Positions 1,195 through 21,294 of a stretch of 26,003 nucleotides of DNA are shown piece by piece. Position 1 is the first letter of the stretch; each line of letters starts with the position of its first letter. A program made the position numbers and the translations under genes. Source of the DNA: a virus; IMG/VR virus record IMGVR_UViG_3300022925_000155, positions 1-26,003 of that record, one strand, 5' to 3'. Under the pieces are notes generated by a model that made no database searches, was not told the DNA's origin, and worked only from the letters and a program-made list of their open reading frames with translations.

Positions 1195-1491
1195 ATGGCT
1201 ATTACACACGCAGGAGAAACCTTTAAGGGTTTGCGGATACCTAAAAGAACGCCCAATGCCTCTAAGTCTCATGCGGTGTTAATAGGTACTAAAGATAAGC
1301 CTAAGATGATTAGGTATGGACAAAAGGGTGTTAAGACTAATCAAACAGTAGGTCAACGCCAAGCATTTGAGAATCGCCATAAAAAGAATATTGCTAAAGG
1401 CGAAACGAGTGCAGCATATTGGGCTGCAAAAACTAAATGGGACCCAGCTAAAACAAAATCATCGTCTAAGAAATGGGTAAAGGGTAGTTAA
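1195..1491 (+). CDS. Small basic protein of unknown function after capsid
   Basis: This is a 98-residue lysine-rich protein (about one residue in five is Lys or Arg), with an acidic-poor C-terminus ending KSSSKKWVKGS. I do not recognise a domain. A TTG four codons upstream (1183) extends the frame, but the ATG at 1195 is preferred because ggag at 1185-1188 sits seven bases before it. It lies just after the capsid terminator, so it would be expressed by read-through, and its stop codon touches the next start (stop 1489-1491, ATG at 1492). T7 has no gene between 10 and 11. Marine T7-like phages often carry a small gene here. A nucleic-acid-binding or minor structural role is possible, but nothing in the sequence shows it. 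Confidence 0.8.
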   Translation: MAITHAGETFKGLRIPKRTPNASKSHAVLIGTKDKPKMIRYGQKGVKTNQTVGQRQAFENRHKKNIAKGETSAAYWAAKTKWDPAKTKSSSKKWVKGS

Positions 1492-2076
1492 ATGGCAGGA
1501 ACAAGTAAATTAGATGCAGTCAATACAATGCTATCTGCCATTGGTGAGGCACCAGTTAGTAGTTTATCATCAGGACTAGTTGAAGCTGAGATTGCAGAAA
1601 GTATTTTAAATACTATTGACAGAGAAGTACAGTCTATGGGCTGGCACTTTAACACAGAATTAAACAAAAGTTTTGCTAAGACAGTGGCAGGTGAGATAAT
1701 TTTACCTGCTGATATTCTTAGAGCAGATGCCACACTAAAAGCTAACGCGCCTAATCTTGTGCAGCGTGGCTTAAAAATGTACGACAGAGTTAATCACACT
1801 TTTATTATTAGTACGGATGTTGCCCTTGATGTGGTAATACAGTTAATATTTGATGATTTACCAGAAGTAGCAAAGCGTTATATTGTACTACGCGCTACTC
1901 GTATATTTCAAGATCGTGTAGTAGGTTCTAACACATTGCACACTTTCCAAGAAAAAGATGAAGAACAGGCTTTAGTACAATTAAAAGATTTTGATAAAGC
2001 TGCTGATGATCATAACATCTTTGACAACTATGATACCTTTAGCATTATTGATAGGCAGGGACGGAGAACAATCTAA
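1492..2076 (+). CDS. Tail tubular protein A, T7 gp11-like (adaptor/gatekeeper)
   Basis: This 194-residue protein (T7 gp11 is 196) forms the adaptor ring linking portal and nozzle in T7-type tails. The N-terminus is diagnostic of the family: KLDAVNTMLSAIGEAPVSSL at residues 6-25, followed by AEIAESILNTIDREVQSMGW and HFNTE. The middle contains the LPADILRAD and LRATRIFQDRVVGS segments also seen in this family. The stop codon overlaps the start of the gp12-like gene by one base (TAATG at 2074-2078), which suggests coupled translation of the two tail-tube proteins. The start is fixed by its abutment to the preceding stop. Confidence 0.92.
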   Translation: MAGTSKLDAVNTMLSAIGEAPVSSLSSGLVEAEIAESILNTIDREVQSMGWHFNTELNKSFAKTVAGEIILPADILRADATLKANAPNLVQRGLKMYDRVNHTFIISTDVALDVVIQLIFDDLPEVAKRYIVLRATRIFQDRVVGSNTLHTFQEKDEEQALVQLKDFDKAADDHNIFDNYDTFSIIDRQGRRTI

Positions 2077-4415
2077 TGGCACTCATCAGTCAATCTATCC
2101 CTAACCTTATTAATGGTGTATCACAACAGCCACCATCACTACGTCTAGCTACACAAGCAGAACTACAAGAGAACGCTCTGTCTAGCGTGGTAACAGGATT
2201 GTCTAAGCGTCCTAGTTCTGAGCATGTTGCTGATCTAGGTACTATTTCTGATCTGGATAAAGCTTTTATCCATACTATCCGTAGGGATGAGAATGAGTTC
2301 TACTCTATGGTGGTAGATACGGCTGGTACTATCAGGGTGTTTGACAAAGATGGTGTATCTAAGACTGTTACCAATAACGCTGCTAGTTATTTATCAGGAT
2401 TGACTAACCCTAGCTTAGAGCTAGCTGCTGTATCTATTGCAGATACAACCTTTATTGTAAACAAGAATACAACAGTAGCCCAAGGCACTGCCACAAGTCC
2501 TACACGTAACCCTGAGGCATTAGTATATGTACGTCAGGCTGACTATTCTTCTACATATCGTTTAAAGATTACTAAAAGTGGAACAACAGAAACAGTAGAA
2601 TTTGCTACAAAGTCCTCAACACAAGACACTACTCCTGAGACACAAAATGCAGAACGTGGTGCATCTACTGACTTGATTGCTGAAAACTTAGATACTTTTT
2701 CAGCTACTGCTGTAGACACTAATCTTTATGAAAACATTACTGATGCTAGTGCTATTTCAGGTATTACAATTACTCGTTATGGCTCAGTATTACACATTCA
2801 GTCAACTGATGCCACAGACTTCCAAGTAGAAGTAGGTGACTCACATGGTAACGAACACCTTCTTGTATTCAAGGATGAAACACCAGACTTTAAAAAGCTT
2901 CCTGTTGAGGGACCAAATGATTTTGTTATTGAGGTATCAGGCGATAACCAAAAAGCACAAGATGATTACTATGTTAAATTTAATGACGGTGTGTGGAAAG
3001 AAACAACAGAACCTAATACCCTTATTGACTTAGATGCTACTACCCTTCCACATAAGTTATCAAAATTAGTTAGTGGTGACTTTCAGTTTGATGAAGTTAG
3101 CTATGCTGACCGTCAAGTAGGTAACGATGATACAAACCCCTTCCCCTCTTTTGTAGGTTATACTATTGCTGATATTTTCTTTCATCGTAACAGACTAGGT
3201 TTACTAGCTGATGAAAATGTTATCTTTGCTAGAGCAGGTGAGTTTGTAGATTTTGATTTCTTCCGTAAGTCAGTACTTGCGCTTGTAGATAGTGACCCTA
3301 TTGACGTAGCAGTGTCTTCTAACAAAGTTAGTATCCTTAAACATGCTGTACCTTTTAACGAGTCACTATTACTTTTCTCTGATCTAACACAGTTCAAAGT
3401 TACTGCTGATCCTATCCTTACCCCTGAAACTATTAATGTAGCTAGTACTACTGAGTTTGAAGCTAGTCTTGTAGCCAAGCCATCACAGGCTGGTAAGTAT
3501 GTATACTTCTCTTCTAATCGTGGTGCCTTTTCAGGTATGTGGGAATACTTTGTAGACACTGATACTGATGTCAATGATGCTACAGAAATTACAGCGCATG
3601 TACCTCAGTATCTTAAAGGTGTTGTAACAAATATACAAACATCCTCTAATGAAGATATGCTTATTGCACAGTCTACTGATGATCCTAAAGCTATTTATGT
3701 TTATCGTTATTACTGGAGTGGTAGAGAAAAACTACAGTCTTCATGGTCACGTTGGGTATTTGATGGTGATGTAATAGGTGTATCTTTTAACAGAGCAGAT
3801 ATCTTTTTGTTAATTAGACGTAGTAACAACTTGTTCTTAGAAAAGATTAATTTGTCTGTTGATAGTGCTACAGTTCATACTACAGGTAACTTTTCTATTC
3901 ATTTAGATAGACGAGTAATGTTAGAAACAGGTGGACTTACTACTATACCTTATGTAGACTCTAATGTAATATATGTAGATCAAACAGGAAAAACTATTTT
4001 ACTTAGTGAGGTAGCTGCAAAGTTAGCTAACTCTGAGAAAGTCTTTGCTGGTATTCCGTTTACCTTTAAATACCAATTCTCTGAGCCTGTACTAAAGCAA
4101 GATAACAAACCTATTACTACTGGACAATTACAATTAAGAAACTATGCTGTTGTTTATAATGATACAGCCTTTTTTAATGTAACTGTAACGCCTCTTAAAC
4201 GTACACCATATGTGCGTACCTTTACAGGCCGTGTGGTAGGTAGTGGTGCTAACATACTTAATCGTGCTGCTATTGAGTCTGGTACATACCGTTTTGGTGT
4301 GTTAGGTAAATCTAGTTCAGTAAGTATTGTATTAGAAAGTGATAACCCTCTACCCTGCATCTTCCAATCAGCAGAGTGGGAAGGGTTCTACGTCCTACGT
4401 TCAAGGAGACTATAA
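2076..4415 (+). CDS. Tail tubular protein B, T7 gp12-like (tail nozzle)
   Basis: At 779 residues this matches T7 gp12 (794), which forms the six-subunit tail nozzle. The start, ALISQSIPNLINGVSQQPPS at residues 2-21, is the signature of the family. Other typical stretches are KLVSGDFQFDEVSYADRQVG near residue 329 and FFHRNRLGLLADENVIFARA near 368, and the remainder is beta-rich. The gene begins one base inside the gp11-like stop and ends one base into the start of the gp13-like gene, so three tail and core genes form a tight overlapping set. No truncation or unusual insertion is visible. Confidence 0.93.
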   Translation: MALISQSIPNLINGVSQQPPSLRLATQAELQENALSSVVTGLSKRPSSEHVADLGTISDLDKAFIHTIRRDENEFYSMVVDTAGTIRVFDKDGVSKTVTNNAASYLSGLTNPSLELAAVSIADTTFIVNKNTTVAQGTATSPTRNPEALVYVRQADYSSTYRLKITKSGTTETVEFATKSSTQDTTPETQNAERGASTDLIAENLDTFSATAVDTNLYENITDASAISGITITRYGSVLHIQSTDATDFQVEVGDSHGNEHLLVFKDETPDFKKLPVEGPNDFVIEVSGDNQKAQDDYYVKFNDGVWKETTEPNTLIDLDATTLPHKLSKLVSGDFQFDEVSYADRQVGNDDTNPFPSFVGYTIADIFFHRNRLGLLADENVIFARAGEFVDFDFFRKSVLALVDSDPIDVAVSSNKVSILKHAVPFNESLLLFSDLTQFKVTADPILTPETINVASTTEFEASLVAKPSQAGKYVYFSSNRGAFSGMWEYFVDTDTDVNDATEITAHVPQYLKGVVTNIQTSSNEDMLIAQSTDDPKAIYVYRYYWSGREKLQSSWSRWVFDGDVIGVSFNRADIFLLIRRSNNLFLEKINLSVDSATVHTTGNFSIHLDRRVMLETGGLTTIPYVDSNVIYVDQTGKTILLSEVAAKLANSEKVFAGIPFTFKYQFSEPVLKQDNKPITTGQLQLRNYAVVYNDTAFFNVTVTPLKRTPYVRTFTGRVVGSGANILNRAAIESGTYRFGVLGKSSSVSIVLESDNPLPCIFQSAEWEGFYVLRSRRL

Positions 4416-4870
4416 TGACACTACATGTGAGAGCAAGTGTACAGGCTGATGTAGATCATCTGGCAACAAACCTAAGACCAGAAGATACACAGGAAGTACT
4501 AGCCTCACATGGTAGTGTTAAGGTAGCATTACAAGAAGGCTTTGATCACTCAGAAGAATGTTGGACTATTGTAGTAACAGAAACAAATGAACTAGCTGGT
4601 ATGTATGGTATAGTTGGTATAGACGATATGACAGGTATGCCTTGGCTACTTACAGCCCCTCCACTAAAAAAAGGTTGGCGTCAATTTGCACGTGAATCTC
4701 TGCCATGGATTAACAGGCTAAACAAGAAGTATCCAGTATTAACCAATGCTTGTGACGCTGAGTATACAGAAGCAGTGAATTGGTTAAAGTATATAGGATG
4801 CGTATTCATTAAGAGACATGACACGTGGGGTGTTGGTAACAAGACCTTTTTAGAATTTGTGAGGATATAA
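4415..4870 (+). CDS. Internal virion protein A, T7 gp13-like (GNAT-fold family)
   Basis: The chosen start is the ATG at 4415, which overlaps the preceding stop (TAATG) and has a strong aaggaga site at 4403-4409. An upstream in-frame start at 4376 lies inside the gp12-like gene and is not preferred. The 151-residue product resembles T7 gp13 (138 residues), a core protein needed for particle assembly and related to acetyltransferase folds. Matching features are the N-terminal RASVQADVDHLATNL stretch, a central GMYGIVGIDDMTGMPWLLT strand pair, and the C-terminal pattern of an aromatic-glycine turn (VNWLKYIGCVFIKRHDTWG). T7 gp13 has a closely similar FLKTIGAVFHEE segment in this position. Enzymatic activity is not implied. 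The identification is supported by its order, gp12-13-14. Confidence 0.82.
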   Translation: MTLHVRASVQADVDHLATNLRPEDTQEVLASHGSVKVALQEGFDHSEECWTIVVTETNELAGMYGIVGIDDMTGMPWLLTAPPLKKGWRQFARESLPWINRLNKKYPVLTNACDAEYTEAVNWLKYIGCVFIKRHDTWGVGNKTFLEFVRI

Positions 4871-4871
4871 T

Positions 4872-5498
4872 ATGGGTATTATGACAGCACTATCAATCGC
4901 TAAAGGAATAGGCGGTTTTATAGACGCTTCTAATAAAGCTAAACAACAAGAAGCTTACTACTTACAAAACAGAATTAATTCAGCACAGGCTAGAGACCTG
5001 CAAATACAAGGTTTACAAAAACGTGCTGTTCAAATTAGCGATCAATATTCACAGAAAAAGCAAGACCTAGTTATAGCTGCTTTAAAACGTGAAGGTACTA
5101 TGATAACGGCTAGTGGTGAGTCTGGTTTAGCAGGTCAAACAGAAGCTATAAAACTTTCGCAAGCTGAGTCTGATAAACTCAAGGGACTTGATATCTACAC
5201 TCGACAAGTTAATGCTATCTTTGATGACATAGAAGTACAGAAGCTAGGATTAAACGCTCAGATGTTACAAAGAATTAGAAGTGTTCAACGTGGTGTACAA
5301 CCAAGTCTAGGTATGGCTATATTAGGAGCAGCTTCTTCTGCTATTTCATCAGAGATAGAAATAGGTGATCAAGCAGACAGTATTTTTAGCAATATTTTTG
5401 GTGGTGGTGATAAGCTTGGTAGTCAGACTGCAGCGTTTACCCCTGTTACATATAATCCTTCATCAGTATGGCTAAACGCTGGCTCAAGTGTACTATAG
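4872..5498 (+). CDS. Internal virion protein B, T7 gp14-like
   Basis: The 208-residue product (T7 gp14 is 196) is the smallest ejection protein, expected to form the outer-membrane pore or channel when the core is ejected. It shows the family layout: a short hydrophobic start (MTALSIAKGIGGFIDASN), a long Gln/Ala-rich alpha-helical middle (residues about 20-150, with KQQEAYYLQNRINSAQARDL) and a small Ala/Ser-rich hydrophobic stretch (MAILGAASSAISS, about 149-161). The start lies one base after the gp13-like stop, with gagg at 4860-4863. Its last codons read through a TACTATAGGGG sequence that resembles a T7-class promoter core. Confidence 0.85.
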   Translation: MGIMTALSIAKGIGGFIDASNKAKQQEAYYLQNRINSAQARDLQIQGLQKRAVQISDQYSQKKQDLVIAALKREGTMITASGESGLAGQTEAIKLSQAESDKLKGLDIYTRQVNAIFDDIEVQKLGLNAQMLQRIRSVQRGVQPSLGMAILGAASSAISSEIEIGDQADSIFSNIFGGGDKLGSQTAAFTPVTYNPSSVWLNAGSSVL

Positions 5499-5507
5499 GG
5501 GAAACAA

Positions 5508-8294
5508 ATGGCTAAACAAAGAGTACTAGTAGGTGAGCTTAATGCTCCCACAGAAGTCACGCCAACAGCACGTGCTGTAGATACCTATGTATCCCCTGAA
5601 AAACCTATAGTTCAAGCCTCACCTTTATCTCAATTTCTTGATGCTATCTCACCACTAACTAATTTAATGCAAGAAGAAGCAAAGAAAGCAAAAGCACTAC
5701 AAGAACGTGATGAGTTAAATGGTAAGAGAGCTAATGAACAGCATCAAGCTGAGATGGCTGCAATTAATTTAACAGCTAGATTAAAAGAAGACTGGATTAC
5801 TAACCAAAATAATTGGTTGTCCTTGACTACTGAAGAAGCAGCCGAAAGAGTATCAAGGCATTATTCTGACTATAGAATGAACTTAGATGAAGCACAGATT
5901 AATCCTCTTGCTTTACAAACCTTTGATCAAAAAGTTGACCAAGATAAACTTCTATTTATGTTTAATAACTTTGGTCCTGAAAAGCGTAAGCGTAACATAG
6001 AGCAACAGGATCAACAATTTAACGATACAATCAGAAGAGCAGGTAGTGTAGCAGAGGATGACCAAATTGTTCCTGCCATGGTTGATGCTTTTAATCAGCA
6101 CGTAGTAGTGACTGGTGGTGACTATCGTAGAGCTAATGATCTAGTAATAGCTACTGCCCTAGTGGAATCTAAAAGAGGCAGAACAAATTATCTTAAATTT
6201 GTAGATGCTATTCAAACTAGAGATGGTAAGTCTCTTAGAAGTATTGATAGGTACGCTGAAGACTTTAATACAATTGATGCTAACGTAGCAGCTTCTATTA
6301 AAGCAACAATTAAAGTTAATAAACCGCTTATTAAGGAAGCTGCTGTAGATAAACTAGTAGCTGACTCTATTGCTACAGGTAATCCTACAGGTGCAAAGGT
6401 AGGGGAAAAAGTCATAGTACCTGATGGTATTGGCGGTACAATTGAATTTACTGTTACTAAAGAAATGGCAGGAAATTCAGCAGATAAACAATTCTTTATC
6501 GCTGATCAATTTTTAAAAGATGAAATAGAAGCTCTTGAAATAGCTAATTCTCAAGGACGTAGTGATTTAGCTACTTTTAATACGGTGATGGAAAACTTTA
6601 AACAACAGCGAGTTGATTTAGAAGCACGTTTTTTTAACACACATTACAATCCACATGACATTGTACCAGCTAGATATAAGCTACCTATCACTGCAGGACT
6701 ACCCTTTTTACAGGGTGGGGATGTAAGCGAAGGTAGCCAAGGAATAGATGCTTTAGGTAATGGACTAAAAGCTATTAGAGATTTTAAGTCTATGGGTGGC
6801 AGCATGTCTACCTTGAAACTTTCTAAAGAACAAGAGTTTAAAGTAAATGCTCTAAATGGTTTGTTGGAATCAGGTAGAGAACTAAGAGACATTGCTCCCT
6901 TTGCATCTAAACCTATTCCCCAAGATTTTGGGAGAGTGGAGACATTAGTAACTGAGGAAAGAGTTAAGGACACAATTGATACAAGTTATTTCTTTGATGG
7001 TACTAACATAGATGAAGCTCAGATTGGATACCCCTCGTTATTGATGGATGTTCAGAAACAAGCTAAAGCTATTATGTTTATGTCAGAGGTACCTATGTCA
7101 GCAGAAGAAGCTGTTGCCTTAGCTATACCACAAGTTAGAGATAATTACCTTACACTTAAAACTAGTCAATGGGATGCGTTTGCTTTAGGCGATCCTAGAC
7201 ACTTCTCAGTGGTAAAGAAAGTATCTGGGCAACTTAATTCAGAAGCTAATGAGGAAATACTTGATGATATACTTACACGCACGTTTGATAATGACCGTGT
7301 AAAAGAAATCATAGCCCCTCGTTTAGCAGCCATAGGATCGTCTACTACAGGTTTCTTTGATCCTGATATGGCTTTTGCTTGGCAGCAAGACTCACGCAAT
7401 ACTAACATGTTAAATCTTATGGCATACGCAGAGGGTGACTACAGCCGCATGGTACGAGTAGGCACTGTTAATCTACAGACTTTAACATCAACTAGTTCAG
7501 TAGCGTTTGCTAACGAGTTAGCTGAGGAATTAAATAAATCTGTAGAGCAAGATGATACAGCGGAACTAATGTCTATTGAGGCACAGAGACTTGCAGAAGA
7601 CTCTGGTATTACTATAGCACCTGCACCTACTGGTTACATTAGTGATCCAGTGAGTAGAGCTTATGACGCCCTTAATCAAACTATGGACATGAGTAGTTCT
7701 ACACTACCTTCTCTTATTACTTCTGCTGGTGCATCAGAACTATTACCTGAAAATAAACCCACAGAGTTAACAAGGGCAGTAGATACAGTTTTATCAACAA
7801 AAAACATTTCTGCTGAAAATGTAACTAAGATTATGCAAACCATAGTCCAACACGAAACTGGTGGTACTATGGACCCTAAGACTATACAAAAGTCTGATAA
7901 AACTACAGATGGTACAGGACCAGCAAGAGGCTTACTACAATATGAACCTGCTAGATTTCTTACCTCAATAACAAGGGCAGAAGAATGGCATAAAAAAACA
8001 GGTAAAAAATTACCTTCTTGGATTACTAAGTTAGGGCCAAAAGTTAGAGGCAAAACATTTAAACAAGTGCAAGATGCTATTCTTAATCTTTCAGGTGAAC
8101 AACAAATTGCTTTAGCTATTTATGATTTACTTGAAGCCCCTAATGCTGATTTTAGTAAAGTAAATCCTAGTGATCTTCAGTCAATTGCAGAGTTTTGGGT
8201 AGAAAACTGGTGGATTGGACCTAAAGGTACAACACAAAAAACTAAAGATGAAATGAAAGAGAAATTTATTGCTTCAGTTAAATCATCTTTCTAA
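5508..8294 (+). CDS. Internal virion protein C, gp15-like, with C-terminal lytic-transglycosylase-like domain
   Basis: At 928 residues this is much longer than T7 gp15 (747). The first ~770 residues are helical, polar and Gln/Lys/Glu-rich, as expected for the periplasmic tunnel component of the ejectosome, and the gene sits between the gp14-like and gp16-like genes. The last ~155 residues look like a separate lysozyme-fold domain: a helix KIMQTIVQHETGG places a probable catalytic glutamate at E783, followed by GPARGLLQYE (804-813), reminiscent of the Glu then Gly-x-x-Gln pattern of soluble lytic transglycosylases, and a Trp-rich end (EFWVENWWIGPKG). In T7 the cell-wall-cutting domain is instead at the N-terminus of gp16. 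The start has a clear aggggaaac site. The core-protein assignment is secure by order; the enzyme domain is inferred from motifs. Confidence 0.85.
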   Translation: MAKQRVLVGELNAPTEVTPTARAVDTYVSPEKPIVQASPLSQFLDAISPLTNLMQEEAKKAKALQERDELNGKRANEQHQAEMAAINLTARLKEDWITNQNNWLSLTTEEAAERVSRHYSDYRMNLDEAQINPLALQTFDQKVDQDKLLFMFNNFGPEKRKRNIEQQDQQFNDTIRRAGSVAEDDQIVPAMVDAFNQHVVVTGGDYRRANDLVIATALVESKRGRTNYLKFVDAIQTRDGKSLRSIDRYAEDFNTIDANVAASIKATIKVNKPLIKEAAVDKLVADSIATGNPTGAKVGEKVIVPDGIGGTIEFTVTKEMAGNSADKQFFIADQFLKDEIEALEIANSQGRSDLATFNTVMENFKQQRVDLEARFFNTHYNPHDIVPARYKLPITAGLPFLQGGDVSEGSQGIDALGNGLKAIRDFKSMGGSMSTLKLSKEQEFKVNALNGLLESGRELRDIAPFASKPIPQDFGRVETLVTEERVKDTIDTSYFFDGTNIDEAQIGYPSLLMDVQKQAKAIMFMSEVPMSAEEAVALAIPQVRDNYLTLKTSQWDAFALGDPRHFSVVKKVSGQLNSEANEEILDDILTRTFDNDRVKEIIAPRLAAIGSSTTGFFDPDMAFAWQQDSRNTNMLNLMAYAEGDYSRMVRVGTVNLQTLTSTSSVAFANELAEELNKSVEQDDTAELMSIEAQRLAEDSGITIAPAPTGYISDPVSRAYDALNQTMDMSSSTLPSLITSAGASELLPENKPTELTRAVDTVLSTKNISAENVTKIMQTIVQHETGGTMDPKTIQKSDKTTDGTGPARGLLQYEPARFLTSITRAEEWHKKTGKKLPSWITKLGPKVRGKTFKQVQDAILNLSGEQQIALAIYDLLEAPNADFSKVNPSDLQSIAEFWVENWWIGPKGTTQKTKDEMKEKFIASVKSSF

Positions 8295-8316
8295 CGTATA
8301 ACTAGGAGTACTATTT

Positions 8317-11300
8317 ATGGCTGACGAAAATCAAGAGTTTCTAAAAAGCCTTGGGTTTAACACAAGTGTTGCTTCTCCTAAAGTTGACTTTGTTAGTGAC
8401 TACACTATGTACAAGGCACAGAAGGAAGCAGAAGAAGAAGTAGCAGACCTTGGATTTTGGGACTTAGTTGGTAAGCGTCAGGCTACTCAAGGTACATTTA
8501 TGAATGTAATGGGTGAGATTGACCGCCCTGATTCAGCAGGTGCTACTGTACTTACTGCACAGGATGTAACCAACCTAACAAGTGGCTTTAGTGACAGAAA
8601 TGCAATTGAGCGTATTCTTGAAGAAGCTTCTGAGAATGGTATTGAACGTGCAAGATATCTAGCCAATGAGTTTAAAAAGACTAAAGAAGCCAATCGGCTC
8701 CTTGGTCTGGCTGGTGTTAAGGGTATAGCTGCACAGGCTGTATCTGATGTATTTGATCCTGCTGACATAGCAGTTATGATAGGCAGTGGTGCTGCTTTAT
8801 CTTGGGCTGGTCCTCTAGGGGCTGGCTTGGGAGCAACTGCTGCTAAGACAGGTAGTCTACTTAGTAAATTTCGTAAGGGAAAAAACTATGCGGCTTTGTT
8901 TGGTGGAGTTACAGCAGCAGAAACATTAGCACTTGAGCGTCTAAGACAACAAAGTAACTACGAGACTACTAATGAAGACTTGTTACTTATGTCAGCTATT
9001 AGTGGTACTGTAGGTGCTGGTATTGGTGGTTTTATCAATCAAAGTGCCAAGCGTCTAGCTATCCAAACAGCACGGCGTAAGTTTGTAGATGAAGAAGACC
9101 TTACTCCTGATGAACTAAATCTTATTTTTAGTAACAGCGATGAGGTACTTGGTCCAAAGTATGTACAAGAAGCAATAGCACGTGATGATTTTAAAAACCG
9201 TTCAGATATAACCAGCGGAACAGAGGCTGATGCTAGGACTTTTGAACAACTAAGCCCTGAACAGCAAGCTGAAGTAGCAGTAGCACGTGGTGGTTTCCAA
9301 AAGTCACGTGGTTTAATCTCTGCTATGGCTAATCTATCAGGTAAGGACACTGTAGCTGAGGTACGTTTCTTAGGTGGTAAGCTGGGAACAGCCTTTGCTG
9401 GTTTCTTACCCAATGCAGATGGTAGTGTAAATGTAGCTAAAGCAGGTGCGTTAGAAGCACGTGACTTTATGCAAGCACGTTTTCGTGGTTTACCTGCCCC
9501 TGCTATTGAAAGAGCTGTTAAGCAGTATAAAAAGCGTGTACGTAAAGAGGGTATATTAGATAACAGAGAGAATGATTTATTTGAGGAAGCTTATGATGCT
9601 TTACGTTTTAACAAGCAAGTAAGTCCAGAAGCACAGATGATAGCAGACGCTATGCGTCCTAACATTGAGGCTTTAGGTAAACAAGCTGTAGAAGCAAACG
9701 TAGCAGGTTTCTTTCCTGATACTCTTTTAGATATTAAAGACTACGGTTTACCTCGCCTACGCAGTCAAGTTAAGATTAGTAAACTAGAAGATATGCTAGA
9801 TGCAGATAACTCTGTGTTTGATGAGCTAGCTGAAGCAGCTATCCGTAGAGGACAACCTGAAATTGAAAGAAAAGTGGCTGCTAAGTTATCTGCTAAGAAG
9901 GGTAAGGCAGCTACTAAGCAAGAAATTGATACCTTTATTAAGCGTTTGGCTTCTGGCTACATGACAAAGTTTAGAGACTTTGAGGGTAAGCTAGGCATGA
10001 AGATGGGTAGCAATGACTTAGATGTAGATGACTTTAAGGAAATCTTACGTCAAGCTGGCGTACCTGAGGATGAGCTTGATTTTATAGCTGAACTTGTATT
10101 ACACAAAGGTAAGGATGTAAAGGGTATTGGAAGAGCAAGACCTCGCATGGTACTTGATGAAGATGCTAGTGTAGATGTAACCATTCGTAATGGACCTCGC
10201 AAGGGTGAAATTATGACACTTAAATTCTCTGATTTAGTAGAAAAGAATGTTCAGAACATTTATGATACCTATGTCTTCCAGATGTCAGGTGCTATTGCAC
10301 TAGCTCAAAGAGGTATTGACACTAATGACATTGGGTCTACTTTTGCTACTCAGTTAAACAAAGCTATTACTGCTGGTGCTACTGAGCAAAACAGGCGTGG
10401 TCTTGAGTATATGTATGATATGGTCAAGGGTACACACATCTATCGTTCTGACATGGGTGCTACAACGCTTAGGATGATGAACAGAGCTAGAGAGGTTAGC
10501 TATAGTGTAAGTATGGGTATGGCTGGTATGGCGGCTCTTATGGAGCTTCCTATGGTCATGGTTCCTAACTCTATTGAGATACTTACAAAGACTATGCCTC
10601 GCTACAAGCAACTTTTACGTGATGCACGTAGTGGCGAGATTAAGGATAGCTTAGGCAGAGAAATGGCAGCAGCAACTGGTATTGGCTCTGATGGTTTAGT
10701 ATCTAAGTTCACTCGCGCACAAAGTAGATTTGAAGGTGAAATCTTTGAGTCACGTAAGACTGCTGGACAATTCACACAGTTAGACGAAGTGTTAGGTAAA
10801 AGTAGAGTATTTGTCTCTATGATGTCTGGCTTAACTGGTGTTACTGATATGTTACGTAGAATAGCAAGTCTTAACTACGCAGTAACATGGGAAGTAGCAG
10901 CACGTAAGGGTGATGTACCATTTTCAGATATTAAGCTAGAACAGCTTGGTATCACTAAAGAAATGGCTTTGAATATAAATAAGCAGATTGTTAAACATGC
11001 TACATATTTGGATAAAGATAAAAAGATACTGGACGCTGTAAACCTTGATAGGTGGACAGACAAAACCGCCGCTGATATATTCGCTATGTCAGCACGTAGG
11101 GATGCTACAACTAGTGTACAAGAAATGAACGCTGGGTCAGTCAATACTTGGCTACGTAGTCCTATCGGTATGACTGTGTTTCAGTTTTTGTCTTTTCCAT
11201 TAGCCTCACTAGAGCAACAAGCAGTTCGTATGGGTGTTCGTGCAGCTAACGGAGATGCAGCAGAGATAGCTCGTACAATGCTTGTCACTACTTTTATGGG

Positions 11301-11676
11301 TAGCATGATGTACTACAGTCGTTCTTGGATGAACTCTGTTGGACGAAGTGATCAAGCAGACTATATGAAAGAACGAGTAAAAGCTGGTAACTGGCTAGTT
11401 GGTACTATGAACCAAGTTGGTCCTGCTTCTTTGTTTAGTTATCTTTATCAAGTAGCTACTGGTACTATGGATGGTAGCACAAGAGCTATTACCCCTGCAT
11501 CTGTCTCAATGGGACTAGGTGTATCTAAAGGTTTAAAGGATTTATTTTCGTCACTTGGACCTGATACAGAATTATCTGAAGGTCAACTTAGAAGTATGTT
11601 AAGGGTTCTTCCTTTTTCATCCCTCTATGGGGCTAGGCAAATTCTAAATTCTTTAGCATCACTAAAAGAAAGTTAA
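8317..11676 (+). CDS. Internal virion protein D, T7 gp16-like, lacking an N-terminal transglycosylase motif
   Basis: The product is 1119 residues, against 1318 for T7 gp16, the largest ejection protein, which forms the inner-membrane part of the DNA channel. The N-terminus shows no Glu-Ser/Thr-Gly plus Gly-Leu-Met/Phe-Gln pattern of a transglycosylase; the shortfall of ~200 residues is about the size of that domain. Hydrophobic Gly/Ala stretches occur near residues 147-175 (IAVMIGSGAALSWAGPLGAG) and 221-240 (AISGTVGAGIGGFIN), and again in the C-terminal third (MGMAGMAALMELPMVMVP, MLVTTFMGSMMYYSRSWMN). These could insert in the membrane. An aggag site at 8304-8308 lies eight bases before the ATG. 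The identity rests on size, position and these features. Confidence 0.85.
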   Translation: MADENQEFLKSLGFNTSVASPKVDFVSDYTMYKAQKEAEEEVADLGFWDLVGKRQATQGTFMNVMGEIDRPDSAGATVLTAQDVTNLTSGFSDRNAIERILEEASENGIERARYLANEFKKTKEANRLLGLAGVKGIAAQAVSDVFDPADIAVMIGSGAALSWAGPLGAGLGATAAKTGSLLSKFRKGKNYAALFGGVTAAETLALERLRQQSNYETTNEDLLLMSAISGTVGAGIGGFINQSAKRLAIQTARRKFVDEEDLTPDELNLIFSNSDEVLGPKYVQEAIARDDFKNRSDITSGTEADARTFEQLSPEQQAEVAVARGGFQKSRGLISAMANLSGKDTVAEVRFLGGKLGTAFAGFLPNADGSVNVAKAGALEARDFMQARFRGLPAPAIERAVKQYKKRVRKEGILDNRENDLFEEAYDALRFNKQVSPEAQMIADAMRPNIEALGKQAVEANVAGFFPDTLLDIKDYGLPRLRSQVKISKLEDMLDADNSVFDELAEAAIRRGQPEIERKVAAKLSAKKGKAATKQEIDTFIKRLASGYMTKFRDFEGKLGMKMGSNDLDVDDFKEILRQAGVPEDELDFIAELVLHKGKDVKGIGRARPRMVLDEDASVDVTIRNGPRKGEIMTLKFSDLVEKNVQNIYDTYVFQMSGAIALAQRGIDTNDIGSTFATQLNKAITAGATEQNRRGLEYMYDMVKGTHIYRSDMGATTLRMMNRAREVSYSVSMGMAGMAALMELPMVMVPNSIEILTKTMPRYKQLLRDARSGEIKDSLGREMAAATGIGSDGLVSKFTRAQSRFEGEIFESRKTAGQFTQLDEVLGKSRVFVSMMSGLTGVTDMLRRIASLNYAVTWEVAARKGDVPFSDIKLEQLGITKEMALNINKQIVKHATYLDKDKKILDAVNLDRWTDKTAADIFAMSARRDATTSVQEMNAGSVNTWLRSPIGMTVFQFLSFPLASLEQQAVRMGVRAANGDAAEIARTMLVTTFMGSMMYYSRSWMNSVGRSDQADYMKERVKAGNWLVGTMNQVGPASLFSYLYQVATGTMDGSTRAITPASVSMGLGVSKGLKDLFSSLGPDTELSEGQLRSMLRVLPFSSLYGARQILNSLASLKES

Positions 11677-11688
11677 TAAGGAAAACAA

Positions 11689-14600
11689 ATGCCTTTATCA
11701 TATGAAAATTATACAGGGGATAATGCGACTACGCAGTTCTCAATCCCCTTTACATATCAGAACACTACTGAAATTAGTGTAACCGTTGACGGTGTGGCTG
11801 AGACAGGTTTAACTTTTCCTTCTAGCTCTACTGTACAACTAACCTCAGCACCTGCTACTGGTGCAATTGTACAGGTTCGCCGTACTACAGACCTTTCAGC
11901 ACGTGCGGTTGACTTTGCGTCAGGCTCAGTGTTGACTGAAGAAGACTTGGATGATTCAGCTATTCAGACCTTCCACGCAGCACAAGAAGCTAAAGACGTA
12001 GTTAATGATACTATTACACTTGATACTGACTTAAAGTGGGATGCAGATAACAAAGTAATTAAGGATGTAGCAAATCCTGTAAACTTACAAGATGCTGCTA
12101 CAAAGAACTATATCGAAAACACTTGGCTAACTACCAGTGACAAAGCTCAACTTAATTCTTTAAACATTGCAAACCTAAATTCTGTTGCTACTAATCTTAC
12201 TGATGTAAATACAGTTGCTACAAACATCTCAGATGTTAATGCGTTTGCTCAAGTGTACCGTAGTGGAGCAACAGACCCAACAACAAGTCTTGATGTAGGA
12301 GATTTGTTCTACAACACTACCAGTAACCTTCTCAAGATTTGGAACGGTAGTTCTTGGGAAACAGGTGTAGCTGGTGCTTCTGGATTGCTTCCTTTAGCTG
12401 GCGGTACGATGACAGGAAACATTGCTTTCTCTGGAAGTCAAACTGTAGATGGGCGTGATGTTTCGGCTGATGGTAACAAGTTAGATAACATTGAAGCCAA
12501 TGCGGATGTAACAGATGCAGTTAATGTAAACCCTCTGGTTGACGCACACCTAAACACAAGTACAGCTACAGTTGATCAAGTGTTAGGATGGACTGGTAGT
12601 GATTACGATTGGGTAGATAATGATAGTGGTTCTGGCGATTTGCTAGCAGCTAACAACCTGTCTGATCTTACTAATACTACAACAGCAAGAACTAATCTAG
12701 GCGTAGCCATTGGGTCTGATGTACAAGCACATTCTTCTGTTTTAGATGGTACTACAGCTTCATTTACTACAGCAGAAGAAAGCAAACTAGCTGGTATTGA
12801 AGCCAGTGCCACTGCTGACCAAACTGGAGCAGAGATTAAAGCAGCTTATGAGGCTGAAGCTAACACTAACGCCTTTACAGACGCTGAAAAAACTAAGCTG
12901 ACTGGTATAGAAGTCGGTGCTACTGCTGACCAAACTGATGCTGAGATTAGAGCAGCCGTTGAAGCAGCAACAGACAGCAACGTGTTTACAGATGCAGACC
13001 ATAGCAAGTTAAATGCTATTGAGGCTGGAGCTACAGCAGACCAAACTGGTGCAGAGATTAAAACTGCTTATGAGGCTGAAGCTAACACTAACGCCTTTAC
13101 AGATGCTGAAAAAACTAAACTGACAGGCATTGAGGCTGGAGCTACAGCAGACCAAACAGCTTCAGAAATCCGTGCGTTGGTTGAAAGTGCTACAGATAGT
13201 AATGTATTTACAGACGCGGATCACACTAAACTCAACGGTATCGAAGCTAGTGCAGATGTAACTGATGTTACTAATGTAACTGCTGCTGGTGCGTTAATGG
13301 ATAGTGAGGTCACTAACCTTGCTCAAGTCAAGTCATTTGATAGCTCTGATTACGCTACAGCCGCGCAAGGTACCACGGCTGATGCAGCATTGCCACGAAC
13401 CGGCGGTGCAATGACTGGGGCTATCACAACCAACTCGACTTTTGATGGGCGTGATGTGGCTACAGACGGAGCCAAGCTTGATGGTATTGAGGCCGGAGCT
13501 ACTGCTGATCAAACTGGTGCAGAGATTAAAACCGCTTATGAGGCTGAAGCTAACACTAATGCTTTTACTGATGCTGAAAAGACTAAACTAACAGGCATAG
13601 AAGCATCAGCTACTGCTGACCAAACAGCCGCAGAAATACGGACATTGGTTGAGAGTGCTACAGATAGTAATGTTTTTACAGACGCTGATCACACAAAACT
13701 AAATGACATTTCTGTAGAGCTTTATGGTGAAAATCCTGTCAGTGCTACAGCACCAACTACTACTGGAAATAACGATTTAGCAATTGGTAGCGGTGCAGAA
13801 GCAATAGCAGGTGTTGTTGGTTCTGGTGATGCAATAGCCATTGGCACAAGTGCTTCTGCTGAGAGAGCTGCCGTTGCAATAGGTAAGAATACTGATGCTG
13901 GTGAATACGGTGTGGCTATTGGCTCAGACGATTTAGGTGTTGGCGCAGTAGCAGATAGACGCAATATAGCTATAGGTGGCGGTGATGGTGCTGCATCAGC
14001 AACAGGTGGGTCTGGTCAAATTGCCATTGGAGAAAACGCTGCTTCTACAAACAATTTCTATGGAACAGCACTTGGACAGGACTCACTTGCATTAGGCAAT
14101 GGTGCTTTTGCTGTGAATAGGTCTAGGGTAGGTTCTGGTGAGTTTGGTACTGCAATCAACATAGGTAGTAATACAGCAACCTATGGTGCATTAGGGAATT
14201 TTACATTTGCCGTAGGTTATCAAGCAAAAGCTTTAAATGCAAAAGGTGTTGCTATAGGTTATCAAGCAATCAGTACTGCAGCTAATGAAATTGCTCTTGG
14301 TGACACATCTGCTACTGTGCGGATTAGTGGTGCTTATACTCTGCCAACAGCAGATGGAACTAATGGTCAAGTAATGACTACAGATGGTTCTGGTACTGTT
14401 AGCTTCACTACTGTATCTGGCGGCGGTGGCGGTGGTGCAAGCACCGAAATCCCAATACTAGCAAAAACAGCAAGTTACACTGTAGTAGCTGGAGATGCTG
14501 GTAAAATAGTTAGTTTTTCTGGTGGTGCATATACTGCTACGCTAACAGCGGCAGCTACGCTAGGGTCTGGTTTCTTTTGTTATATAGAAAACAATGCAGC

Positions 14601-20090: not shown

Positions 20091-20305
20091 TGACAGAAAA
20101 ACAACTGATAGACAGCTTGCATGAGGCTGTCACCCAAGAACTGCTACTACGTGTACGCAGTGGGGAAGCTACAGCTAGTGAACTATCAGTGGCTGTTAAG
20201 TTTCTTAAAGACAACGGCGCGTCTTTGGATGTCATCATGGCAGAAAGTCCTATGGCTAACTTGCTGCAGGACTTGCCCTTTGATGTAGGGGAGCAACTGC
20301 AATGA
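20090..20305 (+). CDS. Terminase small subunit, T7 gp18-like
   Basis: The product is a 71-residue helical acidic protein; T7 gp18 is 89 residues. The pattern of an N-terminal helix with QELLLRVRSGEATASELSVA followed by VKFLKDNGASLDVI is typical of short T7-like or podophage small terminases, in which the second helix reads 'lyNaiikfLkdn'. It would recognise DNA and regulate the large terminase ATPase. The start overlaps the preceding stop by one base, and the stop overlaps the next start (ATGA at 20302-20305). Unlike T7, where only spanin genes separate 18 and 19, a 330-residue structural-type gene lies between the two terminase genes here. Confidence 0.82.
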   Translation: MTEKQLIDSLHEAVTQELLLRVRSGEATASELSVAVKFLKDNGASLDVIMAESPMANLLQDLPFDVGEQLQ

Positions 20306-21294
20306 GAGAAGGTCCAAATGCAACATTACTTACTACAGAAGCAACATTAAACAATAGTACATGGACTAAATTAGTTAATACTAATGTTAATCGTACTTAC
20401 ATGTCTATACTTAACAATGCCTCAACTTATCCTATACGTATAGGTTTTGGACAAGATACCGTAGAACCTACATCAAGTTATCAAATCTTAGGTGGACTGG
20501 CTACTACTAGTAGTTCTTCTTTATCTAATATCGGTGTTTTTAAATTTGGTATACATGACTCAGTACAAAATGTTGAACAAACAGTATGGGAATATGGTGG
20601 TATCTATACATACCCTACTACTGCTGTAGTTATGACTGTAACCAGTTCTGCTGGTGCTGCTGATAATGGGTGTGAAATAGCTGTTAACGGTTTAGATGAA
20701 AACTATAATGAAGTTACAGAAGTCCTTACACTTTCTGGTGCAGGAACTGCAACAACTACGACAACCTTTATTAGAGTTTTTCGTGGTTATGTAGCAGGTA
20801 GTCAGGATACTACAGGCAATGTAACTATTGGTAATGGTGCTAACGTATATAGTTACGTTAATGCTGATAATCAAACACTACAAGCTTTTTATACAATACC
20901 TGCTGGTTATACAGCACAATTGTTACAAACAGACCATACAATTAGTACAGAGCAAAACAATAAGTTTGGACAGATACGTATTATAGTACGTAGACCAAAC
21001 GGTGTGTTTAGAACTCAAGAAAGTTTTACTATAGATAATGGTTCTGTCAGTCGTATTTACAGTACACCTATTTATATTCCAGAAAAATCTGATATTGAAG
21101 TAAGGGCTATAGCTTCAGGAGCTAATGCTTTTTTACACATTTCTTCCACAATAGAACTAGGTCTTACTAGTACTGCAGTAGATTTTTCTAATAGTTCAAA
21201 CCAGTATGAATTTAAAGTAGCTCCTATTAATACTGTGTGGGCTAAGACTACATCACCTGATCCACATACTATCAAAGTAGTACATGATGACTGA
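20302..21294 (+). CDS. Beta-rich virion-type protein between the terminase genes, unknown
   Basis: The 330-residue product is rich in Thr, Ser, Asn, Gly and Val, has no membrane segment or signal peptide, and alternates short hydrophobic strands, as in head-decoration or tail-surface proteins. Segments such as GGIYTYPTTAVVMTVTSSAG and YTIPAGYTAQLLQTDHTIST look like beta-sandwich strands; the latter resembles stretches in other phage structural proteins. I do not recognise a named family. It is translationally coupled to both neighbours: a four-base overlap with the small terminase and an 11-base overlap with the large terminase, with ggggag at 20288-20293. A virion role (head decoration, or tail or fibre accessory) is inferred from composition only. 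Confidence 0.8.
   Translation: MREGPNATLLTTEATLNNSTWTKLVNTNVNRTYMSILNNASTYPIRIGFGQDTVEPTSSYQILGGLATTSSSSLSNIGVFKFGIHDSVQNVEQTVWEYGGIYTYPTTAVVMTVTSSAGAADNGCEIAVNGLDENYNEVTEVLTLSGAGTATTTTTFIRVFRGYVAGSQDTTGNVTIGNGANVYSYVNADNQTLQAFYTIPAGYTAQLLQTDHTISTEQNNKFGQIRIIVRRPNGVFRTQESFTIDNGSVSRIYSTPIYIPEKSDIEVRAIASGANAFLHISSTIELGLTSTAVDFSNSSNQYEFKVAPINTVWAKTTSPDPHTIKVVHDD

Follow-up and report, generated by a model that had tools for sequence, protein, structure and literature searches.

Gene content of the locus

The window analysed here is the whole 26,003-nucleotide stretch of DNA of the IMG/VR virus record IMGVR_UViG_3300022925_000155, and both the window and the relatives used for comparison are metagenomic contigs. 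It encodes, in this order, a major capsid protein, tail tube and nozzle proteins, an internal virion protein matching PHROG 308, the gp14-like, gp15-like and gp16-like ejection proteins and a T7-type tail fibre (Table 1). The gp15-like gene, enclosed by the gp14-like and gp16-like genes, occupies the expected gp15 position. Elsewhere in the window, a 330-aa protein encoded directly upstream of the large terminase (20302-21294) matched PHROG 8198, which is of unknown function (4.1e-49).

Table 1. Ejection genes of the window and features of the gp15-like gene (positions in the window)
Feature	Position	Strand	Description
gp14-like ejection protein	4872..5498	+	208 aa; Pfam T7_gp14 3.4e-12; PHROG 805
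gp15-like ejection (tunnel) protein with putative C-terminal enzyme	5508..8294	+	928 aa; between gp14-like and gp16-like genes
Predicted disordered linker, residues 657-751 of the gp15-like protein	7476..7760	+	pLDDT <50 in the full-length model
Exchanged cassette	7736..8300	+	without DNA match to L001 (blastn, pairwise alignment)
Predicted SLT-like lysozyme-superfamily domain, residues 745-928	7740..8291	+	model; VIA-align; hhalign to T7-type SLT profile
Glu783 codon, presumed catalytic acid	7854..7856	+	invariant in 15 homologues; aligned on T7 gp16 Glu37
GPARGLLQYE, residues 804-813	7917..7946	+	counterpart of the SLT G-L-M-Q motif; on T7 GP-LGMMQF
gp16-like ejection protein without N-terminal enzyme	8317..11676	+	1119 aa; PHROG 342, E 1.9e-71

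An earlier note on this DNA had proposed that the gp15-like protein exceeds T7 gp15 by about 180 residues and that the gp16-like protein falls short of T7 gp16 by about 200. Both estimates agree with the actual lengths (928 vs 747 aa, +181; 1119 vs 1318 aa, -199). The identification of residues 1-740 as a gp15 is supported by gene order and, more weakly, by the predicted fold. Similarity of this region to T7 gp15 was undetectable by sequence, and a tunnel-region profile showed no convincing homology to the gp15 profiles of T7, SP6/K1-5 and phiKMV, a result that says little since the accepted gp15s of SP6 and phiKMV likewise mostly miss T7 gp15 in the same comparison. Searches of PDB sequences with protein and alignment queries returned nothing relevant for gp15 or for the C-terminal domain. 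The full-length model (pLDDT 62) found the PhiM1 structure 8vb2 as its first-ranked Foldseek match at a non-significant E of 0.073, and aligned to the T7 gp15 structures 6yt5, 7k5c and 9jyy with Z 7.1-7.3 over 442-450 residues at large rmsd; both kinds of structure stand among the top rows, and neither match is significant by itself.

A separate domain at the C-terminus of the gp15-like protein

Residues 745-928 form a separate C-terminal domain. It starts near residue 743-745 (nt about 7736-7740) and thus upstream of nt 7821 (residue 772), where the earlier note had placed its beginning. The probable catalytic Glu783 and the motif GPARGLLQYE were found where they had been described, Glu783 within an IVQHET motif that starts at residue 779. 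Fifteen homologues were aligned, of which 14 come from other virus contigs, and H782, E783, G808, Q811, E813 and two later tryptophans are invariant in all of them. HET followed by GPARGLLQYE corresponds to the SLT pattern of a catalytic Glu and a subsequent G-L-M-Q motif, and the two elements fall on E37 and GMMQF of T7 gp16, of which Glu37 is the catalytic residue (PMC8954989). We also considered whether the apparent fusion is really a separate endolysin gene, and this was ruled out, as the domain lies in frame on a single 928-aa ORF.

The AlphaFold model of the domain (pLDDT 87.1, pTM 0.85) places Glu783 at a helix end. Out of 43 matches listed by VIA-align, the best 40 (Z 4.4-7.8) were lytic transglycosylases, lysozymes, chitinases and a few similar enzymes, and the row after these falls to Z 2.4. 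The list is led by the phage lytic transglycosylases 9udh (Z 7.8) and phiKZ gp144 (7.6) and further contains MltE, Slt70, GH19 chitinases, lambda lysozyme and phi29 gp13. Since all Z values are below 8 and a Foldseek search of the domain model against the PDB gave no significant match, the weight of the fold evidence lies in the uniformity of this list. The modelling supports a lysozyme/lytic-transglycosylase-like fold for residues 745-928.

Exchange of the domain between closely related phages

Comparison with the sister contig L001 revealed that the domain coincides with an exchanged stretch of DNA. By blastn and pairwise alignment the two sequences are 91.7% identical over 1195-7735 and 86.2% identical over 8301-11996 with nothing aligning in between, and this gap comprises exactly the C-terminal domain and the stop codon of the gp15-like gene. 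At the same slot L001 encodes a Pfam Phage_lysozyme domain (PF00959, E 2e-10). A fusion created by chimeric assembly from two metagenomic sequences would also fit, given that the window is a linear virus fragment of 26 kb and that its sister contig differs exactly at the domain. However, the domain is fused in frame and runs to the end of the gene, and the same domain is found on gp15 in L019-L027, L086 and L096. We therefore give a chimeric origin hardly any weight.

A search of viral contigs with the domain as a single query gave no match; relatives were found with an alignment query. Domains of the window type occur on the gp15 C-terminus in L005-L007, L013, L019-L027, L086 and L096, GH24 types occur at this slot in L001, L004, L008, L015, L016, L083 and others, and L085, L090 and L094 encode a GH24/pesticin-like domain followed by CHAP. 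Judged from these sequences, the C-terminus of gp15 resembles a slot that receives domains from different sources. A more general proposal, which we put forward tentatively and at somewhat less than even confidence, is that environmental T7-like phages swap SLT-like, T4-lysozyme-like and T4-lysozyme-like plus CHAP enzymes at this slot between near-identical genomes, plausibly matching the host wall and independently of the tunnel that carries them.

The gp15-like proteins with CHAP (L085:757-4128, L090:5953-9336, L094:780-4382) measure 1124-1201 aa and appear to hold a pair of wall enzymes, first a pesticin/T4-lysozyme-like domain with a weak Pfam match and then CHAP (1.2e-6 to 2.3e-6). About 200 extra residues of no known family follow the pesticin-like region in L080:6001-9375 and L095:764-4417. 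The 989-aa gp15-like protein of L092 (126-3092) has no recognisable C-terminal enzyme, and in the same contig the gp16-like match is split across two ORFs (3117-3764 and 3803-6451).

Assignment to an enzyme family

Alignment of the domain by hhalign to a T7-type SLT profile of 30 gp16 N-termini gave a probability of 92.1% (P 6.4e-7), with E783 again on the catalytic Glu of T7, compared to 0.2% for the reversed SLT profile used as a control. The match spans only about the first 60-80 residues of the domain, so that the second half of the SLT active site is unmatched by sequence.

A diverged T4-lysozyme-like (GH24) lysozyme might be expected at this position, because SP6, K1-5 and phiKMV carry such an enzyme on their gp15-equivalents and the closest tunnel relatives, L001 and L004, have GH24 at the slot. 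The domain, however, scored 1.3% against a GH24 profile of T4-lysozyme-like gp15 C-termini and 0.3% against phiKMV gp36C, though the same GH24 profile finds phiKMV gp36C at 97%. In Smith-Waterman alignment it scores 34 with the L001 domain, at the level of shuffled sequences (31.6 +/- 5.1), compared to 289 with the domain of the distant L019. A GH24 identity is thus very unlikely. Given 92% for SLT vs 1.3% for GH24 and 0.2% for the reversed profile, the domain is, by profile comparison, SLT-like rather than T4-lysozyme-like and related to the SLT domain of T7 gp16.

Pfam searches of the window domain gave no match at the curated cut-off (Phage_lysozyme2 with E 0.033) and no match to PF00959. 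Pfam SLT (PF01464) was not listed for it, and the best SLT score in its family is 5.3e-5. As these scores stay short of the Pfam SLT gathering cut-off, we use the term SLT-like and do not imply membership in PF01464. A weak match to PHROG 167 (tail tape measure, E 1.4e-4) was also obtained, and two 1553-aa proteins (L054:1027-5685 and L056:1921-6579) contain a domain-like region around residues 1361-1413; these similarities suggest that related enzymes may occur in tape measure proteins.

The gp16-like protein and the origin of the domain

Residues 35-1115 of the gp16-like protein align to positions 213-1224 of the PHROG 342 profile, and a profile of its relatives meets T7 gp16 only from T7 residue 272, so the N-terminal enzyme of T7 has no counterpart here. 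The same profile of relatives matches K1-5 gp36 at 99.9% (hhalign). No SLT domain was found in the gp16-like protein by Pfam, whereas the same search detects it in T7 gp16 at residues 15-127 (E 1.7e-31). The gp16-like protein is accordingly not a complete T7-type gp16 with an N-terminal transglycosylase, as the earlier note had recognised, and a T7-type SLT N-terminus was absent from gp16 in the window and in all relatives examined. With no lysozyme-type domain detected on the gp16-like N-terminus and a lysozyme-like fold predicted for the gp15-like C-terminus, the suggestion that a lysozyme- or transglycosylase-type enzyme sits on the tunnel component is borne out, in so far as an SLT-like domain is fused to the protein at the gp15 position.

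Alternatively, the domain might have kept the lysozyme fold but lost catalysis, and contribute to the tunnel structurally or by binding peptidoglycan, which would fit with the later half of the SLT motifs being unmatched by sequence. The presumed catalytic Glu and its surrounding motif are nevertheless invariant in 15 divergent homologues, an enzyme family takes the same slot in sister phages, and gp16 offers no other recognisable enzyme candidate. We regard an inactive domain as improbable and favour a wall-cutting enzyme.

The same note had explained the arrangement by a move of the enzyme from gp16 to gp15. Such a literal transfer within this lineage would account for the matching size changes and for the broad enzyme family shared with the N-terminus of T7 gp16. 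The closest relatives of the domain by sequence, however, are the gp15 C-termini of other phages (46% identity for L019) and free-standing phage genes (about 32% for MEP301 gp41, which has relatives of the same form), and not gp16 N-termini, with T7-type sequences reaching about 18-20% identity over 54-62 columns. Furthermore, the move is left unsupported because the near-identical L001 has an unrelated lysozyme in exactly this stretch, and none of the relatives examined has a gp16 with the T7-type enzyme at its N-terminus. A literal transfer is therefore unlikely, and we prefer the exchangeable slot as the explanation.

As for other sources, no relative turned up when the domain alignment was run against 84,980 bacterial and archaeal genomes, so a host origin of the domain is unsupported. 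The trees disagree on the placement of the window, the domain being nearest to the distant L019/L086 group and the tunnel grouping with L006/L013. This conflict is suggestive of a cross-lineage transfer of the domain, which we do not claim since agreement of the tunnel and domain trees was not rejected by the AU test (p 0.175). The free-standing MEP301 gene (L017:6152-6724) lies between the genes for terminase and portal. At another place this phage also encodes a pair of holin and peptidase M15A, and because of that pair the product of the free-standing gene may be a separate virion lysozyme.

Proposed function

Taken together, we consider it likely (roughly 85%) that the gp15-equivalent tunnel protein ends in a virion-associated SLT-like lytic transglycosylase (or lysozyme) domain, residues 745-928, attached through a linker, and that this domain cuts the wall in place of the N-terminus of T7 gp16 and occupies an exchangeable slot; we infer its activity, timing and copy number as well as the role of Glu783. 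By analogy with T7 and PhiM1 (PMC8954989, PMC11440229), the gp15-like protein would be packed in the capsid, ejected via the tail and would then build the periplasmic tunnel. The flexible linker would tether the domains, one per gp15 subunit, and peptidoglycan would be cut locally beside the tunnel with Glu783 as the catalytic acid, so that the tethered domain would do the job that T7 assigns to gp16. Related phages have SLT-like, T4-lysozyme-like or T4-lysozyme-like plus CHAP domains at this position.

The wall enzyme of the T7-type ejection machine would then be a plug-in part, T7's enzyme type being present in the window while L001, which is 92% identical, has an unrelated lysozyme. Together, the window and L001 may serve as a natural experiment on the roles of enzyme chemistry, position and copy number in DNA entry, and on a possible influence of the wall enzyme on host choice.

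Comparison with known systems

According to a review, swapping can place the hydrolase domain of gp16 on gp15 instead (Swanson et al. 2022), and a lysozyme on the gp15-equivalent is already published for SP6 gp36, its K1-5 homologue, phiKMV gp36 and PhiM1. New here are the type of enzyme on gp15 and the direct evidence of exchange; no published account of this exchange was found in the open-access literature, outside of which most subscription journals lie.

SP6 gp36 and K1-5 gp38 (gp35-type; 978 and 982 aa) resemble the window in being gp15-equivalents with a C-terminal muralytic domain, and their gp16 matches likewise start past the enzyme region of the profile. Their domain is a PF00959 GH24 enzyme, however, to which the window domain is unrelated in sequence by the tests run. 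A C-terminal lysozyme domain on the gp15-equivalent is also shared with phiKMV gp36, where it is GH24-type, and with the OEP of PhiM1, in which it is visible by cryo-EM at residues 718-903 (PMC11440229). In the PhiM1 capsid the gp15-type protein is octameric and the gp16-type protein tetrameric, and the gp16-equivalent has an additional inserted endolysin-like domain, of which there is no sign in the window.

Methylophilales phage MEP301 gp41 (190 aa, 32.5% identity) belongs to the domain family of the window but is a free-standing gene between terminase and portal, annotated as hypothetical. The N-terminal lytic transglycosylase of T7 gp16 (PF01464) is related to the window domain by profile, with Glu37 and GPLGMMQF corresponding to Glu783 and GPARGLLQYE. 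Identity between the two is low and the similarity does not extend beyond the domain's first part, and the enzyme that T7 carries on the N-terminus of gp16 has its counterpart in the window on gp15.
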